The position numbers and the translations under genes were made by a program. Shown here piece after piece: positions 9,173 through 15,312 of a stretch of DNA of 16,310 nucleotides. Positions within the stretch are counted from its first letter, which is position 1, and each line of letters starts with the position of its first letter. The notes under the pieces were generated by a model, which saw only the letters and a program-made list of their open reading frames with translations, had not been told where the DNA came from and searched no databases. This DNA comes from Acidimicrobiales bacterium (lineage in GTDB: Bacteria > Actinomycetota > Acidimicrobiia > Acidimicrobiales > Poriferisodalaceae). The DNA lies in assembly GCA_020439485.1 (NCBI GenBank), contig JAGQSP010000370.1, forward strand, positions 3,808 through 20,117, read 5' to 3'.

Positions 9173-9412
9173 TCACGACAGCTTCTGTCTCAGGTCGTCT
9201 ACCTTGTTCTTGGCGGTGTTCTTCGCCTTGTCGGCGGTGTCCTTGGCCTTGTCAGCGAGGTCGTCGAACTTGCTCTTCAGGTCGTCGACCTTCTCCTTGG
9301 CCTCGCCTTCGGCTTCGTCGAGCTCGCCTTCCATCGCGAGCTCGTCATCGTCGGTGAGATCTCCGGCCGCCTGCTTGGCACGGCCCTTCAGCTTGTCGGT
9401 TTCAGCAGACAT
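9173..9412 (-). CDS. CsbD family stress protein
   Basis: A 79-residue, highly charged protein. Residues 6-41 match the CsbD domain (DKLKGRAKQAAGDLTDD, then the EGELDEAEGEAKEKVDD helix). The C-terminal 35 residues are an Ala/Lys/Asp-rich amphipathic repeat (DKAKDTADKAKNTAKNK) resembling LEA-type stress proteins. CsbD was defined in Bacillus as a SigB-dependent general stress protein of unknown mechanism. GAGGAG lies 4 nt before ATG 9412. A GTTT-N15-GGGTAG promoter stands 31 nt upstream of the start, so SigB-like control is supported here too. The gene follows the AI-2E permease on the same strand but has its own promoter. Confidence 0.9.
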   Translation of the reverse strand: MSAETDKLKGRAKQAAGDLTDDDELAMEGELDEAEGEAKEKVDDLKSKFDDLADKAKDTADKAKNTAKNKVDDLRQKLS

Positions 9413-9442
9413 GTGTCTCCTCGTGTTGGGTACGCCTCGTGC

Positions 9443-9467
9443 CTACCCAGACACACACATGTCAAAC
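9443..9467 (-). promoter_or_regulatory. SigB/SigF-type promoter of csbD
   Basis: Read on the minus strand: GTTT (9467-9464), 15 nt, GGGTAG (9448-9443). This matches the general-stress sigma consensus GTTT-N15-17-GGGTA, and the downstream gene is a known stress family. Confidence 0.8.
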
Positions 9468-9481
9468 ATCGCCTACCAACC

Positions 9482-10570
9482 TCAGCCGTCGCCCGCGCCG
9501 ACAGGCCAGGGTGCGCGATGGCTTCGAAGTACCCCGATCGCCGTCGTCATCACAGCTGCCAGGGGTACTGCGACAAATGCACCGATTACCCCGGCAATCG
9601 CTCCGCCGGCAGCCAAGGCGGCCAGAACCGCGGCGGGATGCAGAGGCACCTGGCGCCCCATGACCACGGGCATCACTACATCGCCTTCGATCTGCTGCAC
9701 CGCCAGCGTCAAGATGACGACCAGGGCAGCATCGCCGGGTCCATTGGCGACCAGGGCCACCAGCGCTGCAAGCCCGCCGGCCGCGGTGGCTCCGACAACG
9801 GGCAGGAACGCCCCGAAGAACGTGATGACGGCAAGAGGTATCACCAACGGCACGCCGATCAACAACAGGCCGACGCCTATTGCAACCGAGTCGACCACCC
9901 CGGTGATCGACACCGCTTTCAGGTAGGCGCTCAGCGTGGCCACCGCCTCGCGGCCCGCTTGGTCGACGGCGCGACGGCGTTGCGGATGAACGTGTTCGAC
10001 GAGCCAGCCCCACATCTCGGGCCCGTCCTTGACAAAGAAGAAGGTCAGGGCTGCGGTCAGGAACAGGCCGCTCAGCAGCTCGACCACCAGGGTCGCCCGG
10101 CTCGTCCCCAACGACGACACGCCACCTATCACCGACTGACGCAACCGCTGCTCGATGTCGTCGATGGTCTGTTCGGACAGGTCTAACGGGCCGGTTGCCA
10201 GCCAGTTGCGAACATCGTTCGCAACGTCGCTCCAGCGCGCCGAGTCTTGGGTCAGCTCGGCTGTGAGGCCCCAAGCCGCACCCGCCAGCACGCCGCCAAC
10301 GACCGTCAACACGCCCACCAGCACCAACCATGTCGCCGCCAGAGCGGGAACACCCCTCCTGGTCAGCCTCCTGACCAGCGGTGACAACACCGACGCGACC
10401 ATCGTCGCCACCAGTATCGGCACCACGACGACGCGCAACTGCAGCGCCATCCATCCGAGCGCAAGTGCAGCGACGCCGATGACCAACAGACGCCAGGCCC
10501 ACCCGGTCAGGCGCACCAGCCACCTGGGTGGTTCGAGAAACGCTCGGTCTGGTGCTTGGGCCTCCGACAT
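9482..10570 (-). CDS. AI-2E family transporter (putative permease)
   Basis: A 362-residue membrane protein of the AI-2E exporter/permease family (TqsA/YdiK/PerM type). An N-terminal pair of helices is followed by a long amphipathic periplasmic-type segment (about 120-170: ELTQDSARWSDVANDV... LRQSVIGGVSSLG). A cluster of membrane helices then includes TFFFVKDGPEMWGWL and the conserved C-terminal block VMPVVMGRQVPLHPAAVLAALAAGG. Members export autoinducer-2 or other small solutes, or act in Na+/H+ exchange and stress; the cargo is unknown here. ATG 10570 is chosen over the upstream in-frame extension because the family begins there, and a GTTT-N16-GGGTAG promoter ends 11 nt before it. The leader is very short and has no Shine-Dalgarno. 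Confidence 0.88.
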   Translation of the reverse strand: MSEAQAPDRAFLEPPRWLVRLTGWAWRLLVIGVAALALGWMALQLRVVVVPILVATMVASVLSPLVRRLTRRGVPALAATWLVLVGVLTVVGGVLAGAAWGLTAELTQDSARWSDVANDVRNWLATGPLDLSEQTIDDIEQRLRQSVIGGVSSLGTSRATLVVELLSGLFLTAALTFFFVKDGPEMWGWLVEHVHPQRRRAVDQAGREAVATLSAYLKAVSITGVVDSVAIGVGLLLIGVPLVIPLAVITFFGAFLPVVGATAAGGLAALVALVANGPGDAALVVILTLAVQQIEGDVVMPVVMGRQVPLHPAAVLAALAAGGAIAGVIGAFVAVPLAAVMTTAIGVLRSHRAPWPVGAGDG

Positions 10571-10580
10571 CGGTGGCGAC

Positions 10581-10606
10581 CTACCCCGCCAATGCCGGCG
10601 CCAAAC
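10581..10606 (-). promoter_or_regulatory. SigB/SigF-type promoter of the AI-2E permease gene
   Basis: On the minus strand: GTTT (10606-10603), 16 nt, GGGTAG (10586-10581), 10 nt before ATG 10570. The predicted transcript is nearly leaderless. Confidence 0.75.
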
Positions 10607-10632
10607 GTACCGACCGTTGTCGTGTGGGTCGG

Positions 10633-10659
10633 GTTTCGCCCGACCCCACCCGGGGGTAG
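10633..10659 (+). promoter_or_regulatory. SigB/SigF-type promoter of the DUF6328 gene
   Basis: GTTT (10633-10636), 17 nt, GGGTAG (10654-10659), followed by a 26-nt gap to ATG 10686 that contains GGGGAA as a possible Shine-Dalgarno. It lies back to back with the AI-2E promoter, the two GTTT boxes being 26 bp apart. Confidence 0.72.
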
Positions 10660-10685
10660 GCCGTACCTCGGGGAACGACCACGAG

Positions 10686-11192
10686 ATGACGATGAACGAA
10701 ACGACCACAACACCAGACTCAGCAGCACAACCCTCGGGCGCAGGGGAAGACGACGAAGTCGACGAACAGTTCCGAGCCCTACTGGAGGGCTTGCGCACCT
10801 CACTTCCAGGAGTACAGGTGCTGTTCGGCTTCCTGCTGGTGGCGCCTTTCCAGTCCGACTTCGATGGTTACGACCGCAGCACCATCGTCAGCTTCACCGT
10901 CGCTTTCTTGTCGGCCGCGGTGTCGTCGATGCTGTTCATCGCCCCCAGCGTTCACCAACGACTTCGGGCACCGCGGTCCGGGCTGCGACGCCGCTCGAAG
11001 AAGCACCTCATCATCGCAACCTGGCTGACGATCGCCGGCACCGTCGCCATGGGCGTCGCCATCGTCGCAACGGTCTTCCTGGTGTCGACCTTCGTGTTCG
11101 ACACCGTGTGGTCGAGTGCCGTCGCCGCCTCCCTGGCCGCAGTGCTGGTGTGGGCGTGGTTCTACCTGCCCCTGAAGTGGAGTACCGACTGA
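10686..11192 (+). CDS. DUF6328 family small membrane protein
   Basis: A 168-residue protein with a charged N-terminal 30 residues, the family motif LLEGLRTSLPGVQVLFGFLL (about 36-55), and four predicted membrane helices. These are VQVLFGFLLVAPF, VSFTVAFLSAAVSSMLFIAPS, a helix around IIATWLTIAGTVAMGVAIVA, and a final one ending WAWFYLPLKW. The segment after helix 2 (APSVHQRLRAP) is the conserved cytoplasmic loop of DUF6328. The function is unknown. ATG 10686 or ATG 10692 could start it; 10686 is used because of the spacing from GGGGAA. It is divergent from the AI-2E permease, both having stress-type promoters, which suggests co-regulation. Confidence 0.85.
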   Translation: MTMNETTTTPDSAAQPSGAGEDDEVDEQFRALLEGLRTSLPGVQVLFGFLLVAPFQSDFDGYDRSTIVSFTVAFLSAAVSSMLFIAPSVHQRLRAPRSGLRRRSKKHLIIATWLTIAGTVAMGVAIVATVFLVSTFVFDTVWSSAVAASLAAVLVWAWFYLPLKWSTD

Positions 11193-11224
11193 GCCTGAAA
11201 CCTCTCCGAGATGTCATGACGCGG

Positions 11225-11259
11225 CGTCCCCGCACCCTTGGGGCGTGGGTGCGGGGACG
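11225..11259 (+). terminator. GC-rich hairpin terminator after the DUF6328 gene
   Basis: A perfect 13-bp stem (arms 11225-11237 and 11247-11259) with a 9-nt loop lies 33 nt after the DUF6328 stop. There is no T tract, as is common for actinobacterial terminators. It precedes three smaller hairpins in the same interval. Confidence 0.65.
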
Positions 11260-11275
11260 TGGATGGCCTCGATAC

Positions 11276-11361
11276 GGGCGTCAGTTCTGCTGACGCCATA
11301 CCCTTCGGGCGTCAGTTCTGCTGACGCCATACCCTTCGGGCGTCAGTTCTGCTGACGCCAT
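11276..11361. repeat. 31-bp tandem repeat, each unit a hairpin
   Basis: Two identical 31-bp units begin at 11276 and 11307, and the first 24 bp of a third begin at 11338. Each carries a perfect inverted repeat: GGCGTCAG, a 5-nt loop (TTCTG), then CTGACGCC. The third copy overlaps the last codons and stop of the PRC-barrel gene (stop 11343-11345 on the minus strand), so the array may have grown by duplication of that gene's tail. Arms of neighbouring units can also pair with each other. It probably terminates transcription from both converging genes. Confidence 0.85.
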
Positions 11362-11999
11362 GCCTCGAGGGACGAGGCAGGCAGGCCCAGCCGGACCGAT
11401 CTGGCATCGATCGAGGCGATGAAGTGGGCGGGAATCATCCGCGGTTCTCGGAACCACCCGGGGTCGACCTCGATGGCGACTATCGCCCCGCCATCGGTGA
11501 CCTCGGCGCCCGCAACGCTGCCGACCTTCTCTCCATCGGACGAGAACACGTCGGCTCCTGTCGGGACCGCCACCTCGTCATCGGGGATGTTGCGGTCTGT
11601 GCGCTCGATGACTCGCGGCGTAGCCATGTGCCTCGAGTAGGTGGGCGCAGGGCCACCAGCCCCGTAGGCGGGATAGCCCCAAACCAAAAGGCCTGCGGCC
11701 TGCGGCGGGTACTCGTTGTATGCGTCGGCTTCCTCGACTCGCACGTAGTAGCTCTCCTCGAAACGAGCCAGGTCGTCCAAGTCGACCTCCTCGTTGAGCG
11801 TGATCTGATCCTCGTCGGCACGGGCGACGAACGCCACTGGTACGACACGTTCCTCGGGAAAGAAGAATCCCTTGGACAAGACGAGATGGCTGATCTGCTT
11901 GCGACGTGGGTCCGCGACGAGCCGCTCGACCTTGCCTAGATCGTTGCCGTCCGCCGACACCACTTGGGTTCCTTCCGTGAACTGCAAAGTCTGCGTCAT
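11343..11999 (-). CDS. PRC-barrel domain protein
   Basis: A 218-residue soluble protein. Residues 8-75 form a PRC-barrel (GTQVVSADGNDLGKVERLVAD, then ISHLVLSKGF, EERVVPVAFV and DQITLNEEVDL). A Pro/Tyr/Gly-rich linker (about 95-125) leads to a second PRC-like or DUF2171-like domain (GADVFSSDGEKVGSVAG to the end). PRC-barrels occur in photosynthetic reaction centres and in RimM, and stand-alone ones are common in desiccation- or stress-related gene sets of high-GC bacteria; the role here is unproven. ATG 11999 is chosen over the long upstream extension because GAGGAG lies 8-9 nt before it and the domain starts there. A GTTT-N15-GGGTAG promoter is at 12040-12064. The 3' end runs into the tandem hairpin repeat. 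Confidence 0.88.
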   Translation of the reverse strand: MTQTLQFTEGTQVVSADGNDLGKVERLVADPRRKQISHLVLSKGFFFPEERVVPVAFVARADEDQITLNEEVDLDDLARFEESYYVRVEEADAYNEYPPQAAGLLVWGYPAYGAGGPAPTYSRHMATPRVIERTDRNIPDDEVAVPTGADVFSSDGEKVGSVAGAEVTDGGAIVAIEVDPGWFREPRMIPAHFIASIDARSVRLGLPASSLEAWRQQN

Positions 12000-12039
12000 G
12001 GGTTTCACTCCTCTGTGTTTGTCGGTGTACGTGCATGGA

Positions 12040-12064
12040 CTACCCGATGAGCGGCATCTGAAAC
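12040..12064 (-). promoter_or_regulatory. SigB/SigF-type promoter of the PRC-barrel gene
   Basis: On the minus strand: GTTT (12064-12061), 15 nt, GGGTAG (12045-12040), leaving a leader of about 33 nt with a good GAGGAG before ATG 11999. Confidence 0.78.
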
Positions 12065-12089
12065 ATCGGACCTGACTCACAGCTGCTTG

Positions 12090-12115
12090 GTTTGTGGCCC
12101 CGCGTCTGCGGGTAG
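12090..12115 (+). promoter_or_regulatory. SigB/SigF-type promoter of the small membrane-anchored protein gene
   Basis: GTTT (12090-12093), 16 nt, GGGTAG (12110-12115), 10 nt before ATG 12126. It is back to back with the PRC-barrel promoter, 25 bp separating the two GTTT boxes, the same arrangement as at 10581-10659. Confidence 0.75.
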
Positions 12116-12125
12116 ACCCACCGCC

Positions 12126-12413
12126 ATGAAGATCACCCGAACACTGAAGACGATGGCGTTCACCGCATTGGCTGGCGCTGTCGCGTCGTACTTCCTCGAC
12201 CCGCGGTCGGGCCAGCTGAGGCGCGAGCGCCTGGCCGGCGCAGCCGAGCGGCGCCGCCGTGACCTCGATCACCTCAGGTCCAGCGTCAGCCGTGTTGCCA
12301 ACGCCGTCACACCCGACGGCACAGAAGAGACAGCCGTCTCACCCGACGGCACAGAAGAGACACCCGACGACGAGCACCACATATCGCTGGAAGCCGAGGT
12401 CGCTGTCGGCTGA
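12126..12413 (+). CDS. Small YtxH-like membrane-anchored protein with acidic repeat tail
   Basis: A 95-residue protein. An N-terminal hydrophobic helix (about 10-24, FTALAGAVASYFL) is followed by DPRSGQLRRERL. The pattern YF(L/F)DPxxGxxRRxR recurs in small YtxH- or BON-linked actinobacterial proteins anchored to the membrane. A basic helix follows (AAERRRRDLDHLRSSV). The tail is acidic and contains two copies of PDGTEET, encoded by a 30-bp tandem repeat. No specific function is known. ATG 12126 has no Shine-Dalgarno; the stress-type promoter ends 10 nt before it, implying an almost leaderless mRNA. It converges on the Rieske gene 18 bp away. Confidence 0.7.
   Translation: MKITRTLKTMAFTALAGAVASYFLDPRSGQLRRERLAGAAERRRRDLDHLRSSVSRVANAVTPDGTEETAVSPDGTEETPDDEHHISLEAEVAVG
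12310..12362 (+). repeat. 30-bp tandem duplication within the small protein gene
   Basis: Two identical 23-bp blocks (12310-12332 and 12340-12362) lie at a 30-bp period, each encoding PDGTEET. The in-frame duplication lengthens the acidic tail by ten residues and is a likely site of length variation between strains. Confidence 0.85.
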
Positions 12414-12431
12414 CCCGACCGCCCGTGCAGG

Positions 12432-13667
12432 TCAGTCGAAGTACTGGCCGCACTCGATCTGGACGAGCTCGTCGCCCTCGTCGAATGCCACGTTCAGCGG
12501 ATCGCCGCCGCCGGCAACGTTTTCCATCTGTTCGCGGAACAACCTTCGCAGGGTCCGCACACCACGATCGGAGCTGGCCAGGTGCTCGTCTGAGTGAAGG
12601 GTTATTTCGCCCATGCTCTTCATCGCCTCCCAGTCACCCGGGAACCGCTGGGTGGTCTCGAAATCGGGCTCTCCGCTGGGGCGCAGCGCCTCTATCCGCT
12701 CGAAGAAGGTGCGATCCTTACCTCGCAGCACCGTGAAGATACGGAAGTGAGTGTCGTCGACGGGCACCACGAAACCCAGAGCGTCGCCGCGGCCTGGTGC
12801 GCCGAACGGGTTCGAGACGCCACGGATTCCCGGCAGCACCGTCTCGGTTACGGTTCGCAGGCTTCGTCCGTCGGGGATGTCCATTATTCGGGTTGCGGCC
12901 ACCCCGGTTTCGGTGGTGGCGAAGGTGGTCTGGTCAAGACGTTCCCATGGCTGGAAGTCGAGGGTGTCGAACTCGCCATATCGCGACCCGAACTGTGGAC
13001 CCGAGTGGAAGAAGTGAAGCCACATGAAGTGAGCTGGGTCGAGAATGTTCTCGAAGTGCTGGAACCAGTTGAACGGAACCTCGCCGCGGAAATAGCGGCC
13101 GCTGCCGATGTTCTTGTCGTCGGTGAACAGCTGCTCGTCGTCGTCGAGGTTCTCGAACGTGCTGTAGCGCGGCAGCAACGGCTTGCGTTCGGGCGGTCCT
13201 ATGTAGGCCCACACCAGGCCGTACCGCTCGTCGGCGGGATACCACGGCTGCCTGAACTTGTCGCGGTTCTGGCCGTTGTGCGGTTCGCAGGGTTGGTCGG
13301 TGCAGTTGCCCTGCGTATCGAACGCCCAGCCGTGATAGCAGCAGCGGATGCCACAATCGTCGACGCGCGCATACAACAACGACGTTCCCCGATGAATGCA
13401 GCGAGGATGAACCAGGCCCGGCCTTCCGTCGCGGTTGCGAAACAGGATCAGATCTTCGCCCAGCAGCCGCACCTGCTTGGGCACCTCGGTGGCGTCTTCG
13501 CTGGGACCGATCGGGTGCCAATACCGGCGCAGGAGTTCTCCCATAGGCGTACCCGGACCCACCTCGGCCAGCTCGCGGTCGTATTCGCCAGGCGCCTTTC
13601 CGTAGGCCGTTCCCTGATCTGCTCCGGCCGCCCCACCGTGTGAACGTGTCTCATCGGTGATGCTCAT
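12432..13667 (-). CDS. Rieske non-heme iron aromatic ring-hydroxylating oxygenase, alpha subunit
   Basis: A 411-residue oxygenase component. The Rieske [2Fe-2S] ligands are C90 and H92 (CIH) and C109 and H112 (CCYH). The catalytic mononuclear iron ligands are H213 and H218, with the bridging D210 (DPAHFMWLH). A likely third ligand is D345 in GDWEAM. The C-terminal block SMGEITLHSDEHLASSDRGVRTLRR is characteristic of the phthalate-dioxygenase-like, homomeric branch, which needs a separate reductase. None is encoded in the window. The substrate is unknown; aromatic acid, steroid or O-demethylation roles are all possible. AGGGGG lies 7 nt before ATG 13667. A palindrome at 13694-13712 covers the predicted -10, suggesting repressor control. 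It has no stress-type promoter. Confidence 0.94.
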   Translation of the reverse strand: MSITDETRSHGGAAGADQGTAYGKAPGEYDRELAEVGPGTPMGELLRRYWHPIGPSEDATEVPKQVRLLGEDLILFRNRDGRPGLVHPRCIHRGTSLLYARVDDCGIRCCYHGWAFDTQGNCTDQPCEPHNGQNRDKFRQPWYPADERYGLVWAYIGPPERKPLLPRYSTFENLDDDEQLFTDDKNIGSGRYFRGEVPFNWFQHFENILDPAHFMWLHFFHSGPQFGSRYGEFDTLDFQPWERLDQTTFATTETGVAATRIMDIPDGRSLRTVTETVLPGIRGVSNPFGAPGRGDALGFVVPVDDTHFRIFTVLRGKDRTFFERIEALRPSGEPDFETTQRFPGDWEAMKSMGEITLHSDEHLASSDRGVRTLRRLFREQMENVAGGGDPLNVAFDEGDELVQIECGQYFD

Positions 13668-13693
13668 CTGTGTTCCCCCTGCTCGACGCACTT

Positions 13694-13712
13694 GCCATGT
13701 TATGTACATGGC
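13694..13712. promoter_or_regulatory. Palindromic operator candidate at the Rieske gene promoter
   Basis: A perfect 7-bp inverted repeat, GCCATGT-N5-ACATGGC, starts 26 nt before ATG 13667. On the minus strand it contains TAACAT (13702-13697), a plausible -10. A regulator such as a TetR- or GntR-type repressor bound here would block transcription; none is encoded nearby. A read-through terminator of the MFS gene is a weaker alternative because the stem is AT-poor only in the loop and has no T tract. Confidence 0.5.
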
Positions 13713-13758
13713 CATGCCCGCCCCCACCCGGGGCATCGGCCGGCCGTATCACGTTCCT

Positions 13759-15060
13759 CTACTGAACCTCGTCGAGCCGGTAGGCGGTGAACATCGCTGC
13801 AATCGACGCGGCGGCGAACGCCAGGAACACAAACCCCAGACCCAACCCGTCTTGAAGTGTCCCGAACACGCCGGTGACCAGCAGCGCCGCGCCAACGACG
13901 GTGTTGGAGACGGCGGTGAAGACTGCGCGTTCGTCGGCAGCGGCCATGTCGACCAGGTGGGTCGACCGTCCCAGCCTGACACCTTGATATGCCAGCACGA
14001 CCAGGAACAACAGGCCGCCGGCGACCCAAACCGACGACAGCAGGTTTCGGTCGATCGTAACCATCGCCCCTGCAGCCGCGAACAGGAGCGAGCTGGCTGC
14101 CGCACTGCCCAACAAGACCTTGCGCGACGACTTGTCCGAAAGCCGACCCCACAAACGACCACCGATGATCGTTGCGACACCGGATGCGATGACGAAGGGC
14201 CCCAGGCTGGAGGCGCTTCGCCCTCCCGAAGCCGTCAGGGCCAGCACATAGGGCGGCGAGATCGCGGTGACCGTCAGCAGCGACCGAGCCGTTATGAACA
14301 ATCGGAGCTGACGTTCGGTACGAAGTATTGCCAGATTGGCGATGGCTGCGGCTACACCGTCGACGCCACCTTCGGTGGCCCCTGGCGTTTCCTCCAGTCC
14401 GGCGAACAGGCCGGCAGCCAGCGTCCAGAGAGCTCCGGCCAACAACAGCGTCGCCCCTACGCTGGTGGTCGTCAGGGGAATCCAGCCGGTGGCCAGACCC
14501 AGCCCGAACACCAGGGTGGCGGCCGCGGCGATCGACGTAGCCGTGCCTGTCACCGTGCCACGGCGCGACTTCGACACCGTCTTGCCGAGCACGTCCTTGT
14601 ACGAGGCCGAAGCCACACTGCGAGCCAGGGCAAACACGGCTACCAACGCAACTATCGTCCAGGCGGCCCCTCCACCATCGAAGGTCAGCGCAACCAGGCC
14701 CATGGCCGCCACAGCCGCTCCCTGCACAGCGCTCGCCGCGGCCCAGGCCCACTTGCGTACCGACATGGCCCTGACCCGGTGGCCGACGAACAGCTGCGGC
14801 AGCAGGGCCAGGGCCTCTCGTGCCGGCACGATCAGCCCCACCGCCAGGGCAGAGCCGCCCAACGCCGACACCAGCCACACCAGCACCAGCTTGGGGTCGG
14901 CAAGTCCGTCGCCAGTCTTGGTCGCAGAGAGGCTCGCCAGATGACGGCGAAGGTTGGCAGGTTGTTCGTTACATGCGCTGTCTGGAATGTCCTCGCAAAC
15001 GCGATCGGCGCCCTCACCGAAGAGTGCCTCGGTGGCCCGATCGGCCAGGTCGTCGGCCAT
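13759..15060 (-). CDS. MFS transporter
   Basis: A 433-residue multi-pass membrane protein with about twelve helices. The N-terminal 55 residues are hydrophilic (ADDLADRATEALFGEGADRV...). Helix-rich halves flank a central loop near GLEETPGATEGGVDG. The major-facilitator cytoplasmic loop motif is visible in the second half as GRLWGRLSDKSSRKVLL, and a related VGHRVRAMSVRKWAW lies after helix 2. The cargo is unknown. ATG 15060 is used; an in-frame ATG at 15096 would overlap the upstream gene by 26 nt, and neither has a convincing Shine-Dalgarno. The start is 10 nt after the TAG stop of the small gene at 15071, so the two should form an operon driven by the stress-type promoter at 15287. Confidence 0.85.
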   Translation of the reverse strand: MADDLADRATEALFGEGADRVCEDIPDSACNEQPANLRRHLASLSATKTGDGLADPKLVLVWLVSALGGSALAVGLIVPAREALALLPQLFVGHRVRAMSVRKWAWAAASAVQGAAVAAMGLVALTFDGGGAAWTIVALVAVFALARSVASASYKDVLGKTVSKSRRGTVTGTATSIAAAATLVFGLGLATGWIPLTTTSVGATLLLAGALWTLAAGLFAGLEETPGATEGGVDGVAAAIANLAILRTERQLRLFITARSLLTVTAISPPYVLALTASGGRSASSLGPFVIASGVATIIGGRLWGRLSDKSSRKVLLGSAAASSLLFAAAGAMVTIDRNLLSSVWVAGGLLFLVVLAYQGVRLGRSTHLVDMAAADERAVFTAVSNTVVGAALLVTGVFGTLQDGLGLGFVFLAFAAASIAAMFTAYRLDEVQ

Positions 15061-15070
15061 GGCTGTGGGT

Positions 15071-15277
15071 CTAGCTTCCCGACCTCGAGGCGTCATCGCG
15101 GTGTCGCATCAGCAGATAGCCGAGCAGACCCGTCGTCGCGGCCAGAGCCGCAACGGTCAGTGCACGGTGTTCGTTCCAGAGCCTTCCGGCGAGACGGGAA
15201 GTCGTCGGTGCGATCTCGCCAGCCGCGTCGGTTACTCGTTCCGTCAGGTCTTCGATCGTTTCGGTTTGGGTGAACAT
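15071..15277 (-). CDS. Small single-TM protein heading the MFS operon
   Basis: A 68-residue protein of unrecognised family. It has an acidic amphipathic N-terminus (ETIEDLTERVTDAAGEIAP), a basic segment (SRLAGRLWNEHR), one membrane helix (about 40-58, ALTVAALAATTGLLGYLLM) and a charged tail. It resembles the many small stress-related membrane proteins of actinobacteria, but no specific family can be named. ATG 15277 has no Shine-Dalgarno. A GTTT-N16-GGGTAG promoter ends 9 nt upstream. The MFS gene follows after 10 nt. Confidence 0.7.
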   Translation of the reverse strand: MFTQTETIEDLTERVTDAAGEIAPTTSRLAGRLWNEHRALTVAALAATTGLLGYLLMRHRDDASRSGS

Positions 15278-15286
15278 GTCAGCGAA

Positions 15287-15312
15287 CTACCCCACGGCTC
15301 CCTGCCCCAAAC
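15287..15312 (-). promoter_or_regulatory. SigB/SigF-type promoter of the small TM protein-MFS operon
   Basis: On the minus strand: GTTT (15312-15309), 16 nt, GGGTAG (15292-15287), then 9 nt to ATG 15277. Confidence 0.75.

Follow-up and report, generated by a model that had tools for sequence, protein, structure and literature searches.

GTTT/GGGTAG sites at a Poriferisodalaceae locus and a probable SigB/SigF-type general-stress regulon with a predicted leaderless class

The stretch examined here, called the window, comprises 16,310 nucleotides (nt) from a draft assembly of an Acidimicrobiales bacterium of the family Poriferisodalaceae (GCA_020439485.1, contig JAGQSP010000370.1, here C150, positions 3808-20117). 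The assembly holds 3.89 Mb in 777 contigs and is 77% complete. Genes for a CsbD-family protein, an AI-2E family permease, a DUF6328 protein, a PRC-barrel protein, a small YtxH-like protein and a presumed operon of a 68-amino-acid (aa) protein and an MFS-type transporter lie together in the window, and each of these genes, or the operon as a whole, is preceded by a site of the form GTTT-N15-17-GGGTAG (Table 1). The six sites are very probably promoters of a SigB/SigF-type sigma factor whose gene lies on a different contig of this genome, C239. Gene calls and starts come from a rough codon-usage script trained on known genes, and the gap is counted as the nucleotides between the end of the -10 hexamer (GGGTAG) and the start codon. 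The AI-2E start (10570) and the 68-aa start (15277) were read from the frames; the caller placed the former at 10516 and omitted the latter open reading frame (ORF).

Table 1. Predicted promoters and genes in the window and on contig C239 (SD, Shine-Dalgarno motif; strand as in the respective contig)
Feature	Contig	Coordinates	Strand	Details
SigB-type promoter of csbD	C150 (window)	9443..9467	-	GTTT-N15-GGGTAG; gap 30 nt; AGGAG; leadered class
SigB-type promoter of AI-2E gene	C150 (window)	10581..10606	-	GTTT-N16-GGGTAG; gap 10 nt to ATG; without SD; predicted leaderless
SigB-type promoter of DUF6328	C150 (window)	10633..10659	+	GTTT-N17-GGGTAG; gap 26 nt
SigB-type promoter of PRC-barrel gene	C150 (window)	12040..12064	-	GTTT-N15-GGGTAG; gap 40 nt; AGGAG
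SigB-type promoter of YtxH-like gene	C150 (window)	12090..12115	+	GTTT-N16-GGGTAG; gap 10 nt; without SD; predicted leaderless
SigB-type promoter of 68-aa and MFS genes	C150 (window)	15287..15312	-	GTTT-N16-GGGTAG; gap 9 nt; without SD; predicted leaderless
csbD, CsbD family, 79 aa	C150 (window)	9173..9412	-	PF05532, 46.8 bits (cut-off 40)
AI-2E family permease (AI-2E_transport), 362 aa	C150 (window)	9482..10570	-	PF01594, 191.8 bits, over cut-off
DUF6328 protein, 168 aa	C150 (window)	10686..11192	+	PF19853, 89.2 bits, over cut-off
PRC-barrel protein, 218 aa	C150 (window)	11343..11999	-	PF05239, 53.1 bits, over cut-off
Small YtxH-like protein, 95 aa	C150 (window)	12126..12413	+	PF12732, 24.1 bits, below cut-off 37.5
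68-aa protein, first gene of presumed operon	C150 (window)	15071..15277	-	One transmembrane-like stretch; ORF and sequence reading
MFS-type transporter, 445 aa, second gene of presumed operon	C150 (window)	13759..15096	-	PF07690, 29.8 bits, just under cut-off 33.4
Sigma factor	C239	565-1323	-	Over SigBFG cut-off
Weakly RsbW-like gene	C239	start 1703, stop 1320		Adjoins sigma gene; HATPase_c_2 23.9 bits (cut-off 27.4); RsbW model 42.7 bits (cut-off 145)
Variant site GTTT-N16-GGGAAA	C239	1749-1774	-	Upstream of rsbW-sigB
SpoIIE-type phosphatase (RsbU-like)	C239	1783-3105	-	Over Pfam cut-off
Gene with match to Rv2629-family ribosome hibernation factors	C239	3165-4190		Match below cut-off
STAS protein (RsbV-like)	C239	4220-4528		Motif IDSSGL; over Pfam cut-off
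HATPase_c_2 protein	C239	4539-5021		Over Pfam cut-off
UspA	C239	4999-5448	-	
NuoF-like protein	C239	5939-7381	-	

A preliminary description of the window had reported the six motifs and their orientation towards the genes. All are exact in position and strand, lie outside called genes, and are each directed at their gene, ending 9-40 nt before its ATG. Their number exceeds chance by a wide margin: the description had estimated about 0.1 sites, and in 200 dinucleotide shuffles, with a mean of 0.04, six were never reached. Neither a relaxed search of the window (GTTT-N13-18-GGGTA) nor six degenerate variants of the motif retrieved any further site.

Nine stretches of the genome match the SigBFG family model at E ≤ 0.001, and only the C239 sigma gene exceeds the family cut-off (238.2 bits; cut-off 234.35). 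It falls below the TIGR02941 SigB equivalog (170.9 versus 315 bits) and the SigF subfamily NF005514 (237.4 versus 372 bits). A partner switch consists of an RsbW-type kinase, a STAS antagonist carrying a DSSG serine and a PP2C phosphatase. The preliminary description had proposed to look for a SigB/SigF homologue with RsbW/RsbV partners, and C239 provides the sigma gene with RsbW-, RsbV- and RsbU-like genes beside it; the STAS protein, the SpoIIE phosphatase and the HATPase_c_2 protein are recognised over their Pfam cut-offs. Five further sites occur on this 8.5-kb contig. They precede a gene truncated at the end of the contig (gap 45 nt) and the hibernation-like gene (33 nt) and, with shorter gaps, the genes of a 127-aa protein and UspA (9 nt each) and the NuoF-like gene (10 nt). 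The regulon had been described as local and has to be widened by the five sites on the contig of the sigma factor. Known stress proteins among the targets are CsbD and UspA. The variant upstream of rsbW-sigB is the sole GTTT-N15-17-GGGAA in the window and C239.

The 127-aa protein (L034:139-522) matches no Pfam or NCBIfam family, and the 68-aa protein of the window likewise matched no family in the family scan. Relatives of the former adjoin the sigma gene in the uncultured actinobacterium RBC023, and in genome G018 a relative is the second gene behind a SigB-type site. It is likely a conserved partner of the SigB module.

The sites could be SigB-type and nevertheless be recognised by a different sigma factor of this genome, such as those on C421, C657 or C574. 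In its favour, the SigBFG matches at E ≤ 0.001 include C421 with 129 bits and C657 with 117 bits, and SigB homologues of Streptomyces coelicolor cross-recognise promoters (PMC8346170). However, no sigma factor but that of C239 exceeds the family cut-off, and its contig carries five such sites. Moreover, 12 other family genomes were counted and show no motif excess, although many family genomes hold distant sigma matches (25-34% identity), perhaps relatives of the C421 or C657 genes. We give this alternative a small chance of being right.

In Bacillus subtilis, SigB is associated with the RsbU/V/W partner-switch genes, and csbD is a member of its regulon. The B. subtilis SigB promoter reads GTTTAA-N12-14-GGG(A/T)A(A/T) (PMC8346170); in contrast, the C239 sigma factor is not a SigB equivalog, no AA follows GTTT here, and the B. 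subtilis spacer is 13-15 nt when counted alike. The SigF regulon of Mycobacterium smegmatis resembles the present one in its GTTT-N14-19-GGGTA promoters and its SigB/F/G-family sigma factor (PMC4694148, PMC6448022) as well as in RsbW-type control (PMC7693655), whereas the C239 sigma factor stays under the NF005514 cut-off and the regulon content differs. In S. coelicolor, GTTT/GGGTA elements and GGGTAG promoters are also found, but nine homologues exist there against one family member over the cut-off here (PMC8346170). A DNA-binding regulator that recognises the motif in place of a sigma factor is very improbable, because the half-sites fit the published M. smegmatis SigF consensus (PMC4694148) and because of the promoter spacing, the fixed orientation to the gene and a predicted start that often falls nearly at the ATG.

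The same promoters recur in other genomes. G018, a single-contig genome of the same order, contains 37 sites against 4 of the reversed pattern; among the 36 that were examined, 32 fall outside called genes, and 29 have a called start no more than 150 nt away. Twenty downstream proteins were scanned for families, and those found behind sites include DUF6131, MscS, Ni-SOD, a trehalase-like GH15 protein, the trehalose-phosphate synthase family, cytidine deaminase, GlgE, a ferredoxin-type protein, DUF7218, a ferritin-fold (Dps-like) protein, two AI-2E proteins, CsbD and a relative of the window MFS transporter (62-63% identical, motif 12 nt upstream). In G183, the draft genome of RBC023, there are 30 sites against 8 reversed; 26 of the 30 are located outside called genes, 18 have a start no more than 150 nt away, and for five the gap is 9-12 nt. 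Its sigma factor is the closest to that of C239 (60% identity). Genes behind its sites include DUF6328 (10 nt before the called GTG), a relative of the 127-aa protein (at 9 nt, like that on C239), HSP20, a ferritin-fold protein, a PRC-barrel protein below cut-off, hemerythrin and DUF4383. As with CsbD and UspA in the window genome, known stress proteins are thus present behind the sites of both genomes: the ferritin-fold protein, Ni-SOD and MscS in G018, HSP20 and the ferritin-fold protein in G183. The SigB modules of RBC023 (locus L037) and G018 share with C239 the joint STAS, RsbW-like and sigma genes, a nearby relative of the 127-aa protein and the promoters; G018 differs in that its csbD, AI-2E and MFS relatives are scattered rather than gathered within 6 kb.

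Across the order, 148 genomes were divided into 75 that bear the sigma factor (match at E ≤ 1e-30) and 73 that lack it. The ratio of motif to reversed control has a median log2 of 0.68 in the former and -0.76 in the latter (P 3e-11); base composition may differ between the groups, which the reversed control covers partly, and the ratio of the window genome itself is below one. A ratio of twofold or more is reached by 33 of the 75 bearing and 2 of the 73 lacking genomes, and the lacking genomes sum to 1640 sites versus 2993 control matches. The strict motif stands at most 250 nt upstream of 7 of 27 csbD matches, that is, in 7 of 15 csbD-bearing genomes including the window genome, all with the sigma factor; one of these matches, in G013, is under the family cut-off. 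Another clustered regulon of the order was observed at locus L095 (G117:C97:1-17000), with six sites in 17 kb around the sigma gene and 24 sites versus 4 reversed in the genome.

The gaps of the 11 clustered sites (six in the window, five on C239) form two classes: 9-10 nt in six cases and 26-45 nt in five. Transcription typically starts 6-8 nt after the -10 element. Therefore, the leaders of the short class would measure only about 1-4 nt. SD motifs were scored as AGGA, GGAG or GAGG in the same 17 nt upstream of every start; they precede three of the five long-spaced genes (csbD, PRC-barrel, hibernation-like) and one of the six short-spaced ones (NuoF-like). Because of the 9-10 nt gaps and the lack of an SD motif in five of six genes, the short-spaced class, about half of the clustered promoters, is predicted to yield leaderless mRNAs. 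In G018, with the starts set by the caller, 14 of the 29 gaps within 150 nt measure 9-12 nt (P ~4e-15 if gaps were distributed evenly between 0 and 150 nt). SD motifs there accompany none of 15 short-spaced genes (≤ 12 nt), 7 of 14 long-spaced ones and 30 of 102 other called genes of the same loci (Fisher P 0.002 and 0.011). For the G018 AI-2E gene the caller gave a gap of 25 nt; an in-frame ATG also follows that site at 10 nt, as in the window.

This prediction has to be balanced against several points. The short starts of the AI-2E, 127-aa and 68-aa genes were read from the frames, for which the caller gave longer gaps or no call; with its own starts, 3 rather than 6 of the 11 sites have gaps of 9-12 nt. 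In short-spaced genes, part of the 17-nt SD window is promoter sequence, so that an SD motif is less likely to occur there. The AGGAG of the NuoF-like gene overlaps the -10 element, outside the predicted mRNA, and sits at normal SD distance. For this reason, transcription from a different promoter may give that gene a leader.

In M. smegmatis, 24% of all transcripts are leaderless under a rule of leaders ≤ 5 nt (PMC6448022). The accessible portions of PMC4694148 and PMC6448022 do not mention such a class for the SigF regulon, and the short-spaced, predicted leaderless promoters are the new part here, SigB-type regulons themselves being well known. Beside the sigma module of G018, a SigB-type site lies 9 nt before a 24-codon ORF (L090:11747-11821, minus strand) with a single hydrophobic stretch, MLYTIFIILAIIALLLFIFGRRRV, possibly a leaderless membrane peptide.

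Several results weigh against the assignment of the six sites to a C239 sigma regulon. The protein adjoining the sigma gene matches RsbW only weakly. The genome-wide count of GTTT-N15-17-GGGTA is 24 against 28 for the reversed pattern, so that the motif shows no excess by number, and many of the 13 sites off C150 and C239 are probably due to chance, since a called start lies no farther than 150 nt from only four of them (L003, L004, L020, L023) and four are inside genes. The strict motif is absent within 250 nt upstream of 20 of the 27 csbD matches, including 12 of the 18 that exceed the family cut-off. In G017, G149 and G137, the same span before DUF6328 lacks the strict motif, and the gene was rejected there as a conserved target. 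Even the sigma-bearing genomes sum to 916 sites versus only 795 control matches, and 42 of the 75 stay below twofold.

The genome count was dropped as proof of function, and position, clustering and conservation were used as evidence because the motif is not over-represented. Twenty of the 24 sites lie outside called genes, including all 11 on C150 and C239, and nine of the remaining 13. Equal frequency inside genes had been named beforehand as an outcome that would speak against the regulon; the sites avoid genes, but their total does not rise above the control. The 11 clustered sites fall on 0.74% of the assembly (binomial P ~8e-18, with sites treated as independent and the contigs chosen after seeing the data). 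An accidental placing of GTTT and GGGTA near starts in a G+C-rich genome would suit the total of 24 versus 28, yet it is hardly credible beside six sites in 5.9 kb where 0.04 are expected, their clustering, the motif before related genes elsewhere and the 9-12 nt peak in G018.

Two off-cluster sites look like further regulon members: L020, before a 150-aa protein without a family (gap 10 nt), and L023, before a BrkB-family membrane protein (gap 11 nt). In addition, motifs were observed 169 nt before a sigma-70 gene (C634:5972-5996, locus L035) and 185 nt before an ECF-like sigma gene (L019:1500-1524). At such gaps the links to these genes are weak and were set aside; a sigma cascade and chance are both possible.

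The last base of the -10 element shows a preference in this genome. G follows GGGTA at 10 of the 11 clustered sites, at 16 of the 24 genome sites and at 9 of 38 other GGGTA occurrences in sampled DNA of the same genome (P ~5e-6). In G018, C is found at 19 and G at 8 of 36 sites; in G183, G and C are found at 12 and 11 of 30. The preliminary description had proposed G in place of T as a trait of the lineage. The preference is genuine in the window genome, yet a novel consensus was rejected, as GGGTAG is listed for the S. coelicolor SigB-homologue promoters SCO1566p, SCO7446p and SCO1276p (PMC8346170) and thus lies within the known range.

From the computed sites, the sigma family, the gene neighbourhood, several conserved promoter-gene pairs and the two spacing classes, we infer binding by the C239 sigma factor, partner switching, stress induction and leaderless mRNAs. 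Under stress, the RsbU-like phosphatase would dephosphorylate the RsbV-like STAS protein, which would then pull the RsbW-like kinase away from the sigma factor. Once free, the sigma factor would guide RNA polymerase to GTTT-N15-17-GGGTA(G) promoters. In the window, these would serve csbD, the AI-2E permease, DUF6328, the PRC-barrel protein, the YtxH-like protein and the small protein with the MFS transporter; on C239, the 127-aa protein, the weakly ribosome-hibernation-like protein, the universal stress protein and the NuoF-like flavoprotein. Promoters at 9-10 nt would give leaderless mRNAs and the remaining ones leadered mRNAs. Since the GTTT-N16-GGGAAA variant precedes rsbW-sigB, positive feedback is suggested. 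The membership of the window genes in a general-stress regulon, as first proposed for them, gains support from the sigma and partner genes, the position of the sites and the conserved promoter-gene pairs.

Two repeats were observed among the window genes. Between the convergent DUF6328 and PRC-barrel genes, a 31-bp unit is repeated perfectly 2.8 times at positions 11275-11361, and every unit is a GC-rich hairpin (GGCGTCAG-TTCT-GCTGACGCC). The stretch, possibly a terminator, has a folding energy of -52.8 kcal/mol (z -8.3). The unit was not found elsewhere among 197 loci searched. Within the YtxH-like gene, a 30-bp tandem repeat of 2.1 copies (12303-12366) produces a repeated stretch near its end.

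The distribution in the family is patchy. Among 39 family genomes, only the window genome has a close sigma match; the next reach 34% (G010) and 32% identity (G001, same genus, 96% complete). A search of 8 other family members revealed neither csbD nor DUF6328, and the MFS gene was found in 2 of 46 genomes (E ≤ 1e-20), the window genome and G018. In DNA comparisons with five family members, scoring at most 40 first-look candidates per genome, matches to 9173-15277 are confined to the Rieske gene (12432-13667). CsbD, AI-2E and MFS match G018 at the DNA level. In the sigma tree, the C239 gene groups with RBC023 (support 98/88) and, more widely, with G069, G018, G143 and G149 (91/84).

Contamination of the draft is disfavoured. 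C150, C239 and C634 are nearly equal in G+C (0.65-0.66), and their tetranucleotide frequencies correlate at 0.98. For the left part of the window, the closest DNA matches come from family members: a DEAD helicase (75% in G001, against 72% in G018), Kup (70%, G010) and an enolase-like gene (72%, G009). The DNA matching covered the window only, and C239 may still be a contaminant. The patchy distribution fits a gain of the regulon from related families or its sole retention among them.

Full-text literature searches for a general-stress sigma regulon in the Acidimicrobiia, the Acidimicrobiales or Ilumatobacter turned up no paper recognisable as a description of one, only work on other subjects such as Streptomyces and c-di-GMP; such a regulon may nevertheless already be in print. 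The parts worth following are the leaderless class and the patchy presence within the family. We tentatively consider, as a rather doubtful reading, a portable, self-contained regulon, made of the sigma factor, a partner switch and compact targets with their own, often leaderless promoters, that entered or was kept by a single lineage of an otherwise lacking family. If this were true, leaderless promoters would make the target genes easily moved units of about 26 bp plus an ORF, because no leader or SD motif is needed. More broadly, a probable place in the general stress response can be given to families of obscure function (the AI-2E permease, DUF6328, PRC-barrel, YtxH-like and 127-aa proteins), and with the help of the spacing such regulons can be recognised in the DNA of uncultured relatives.

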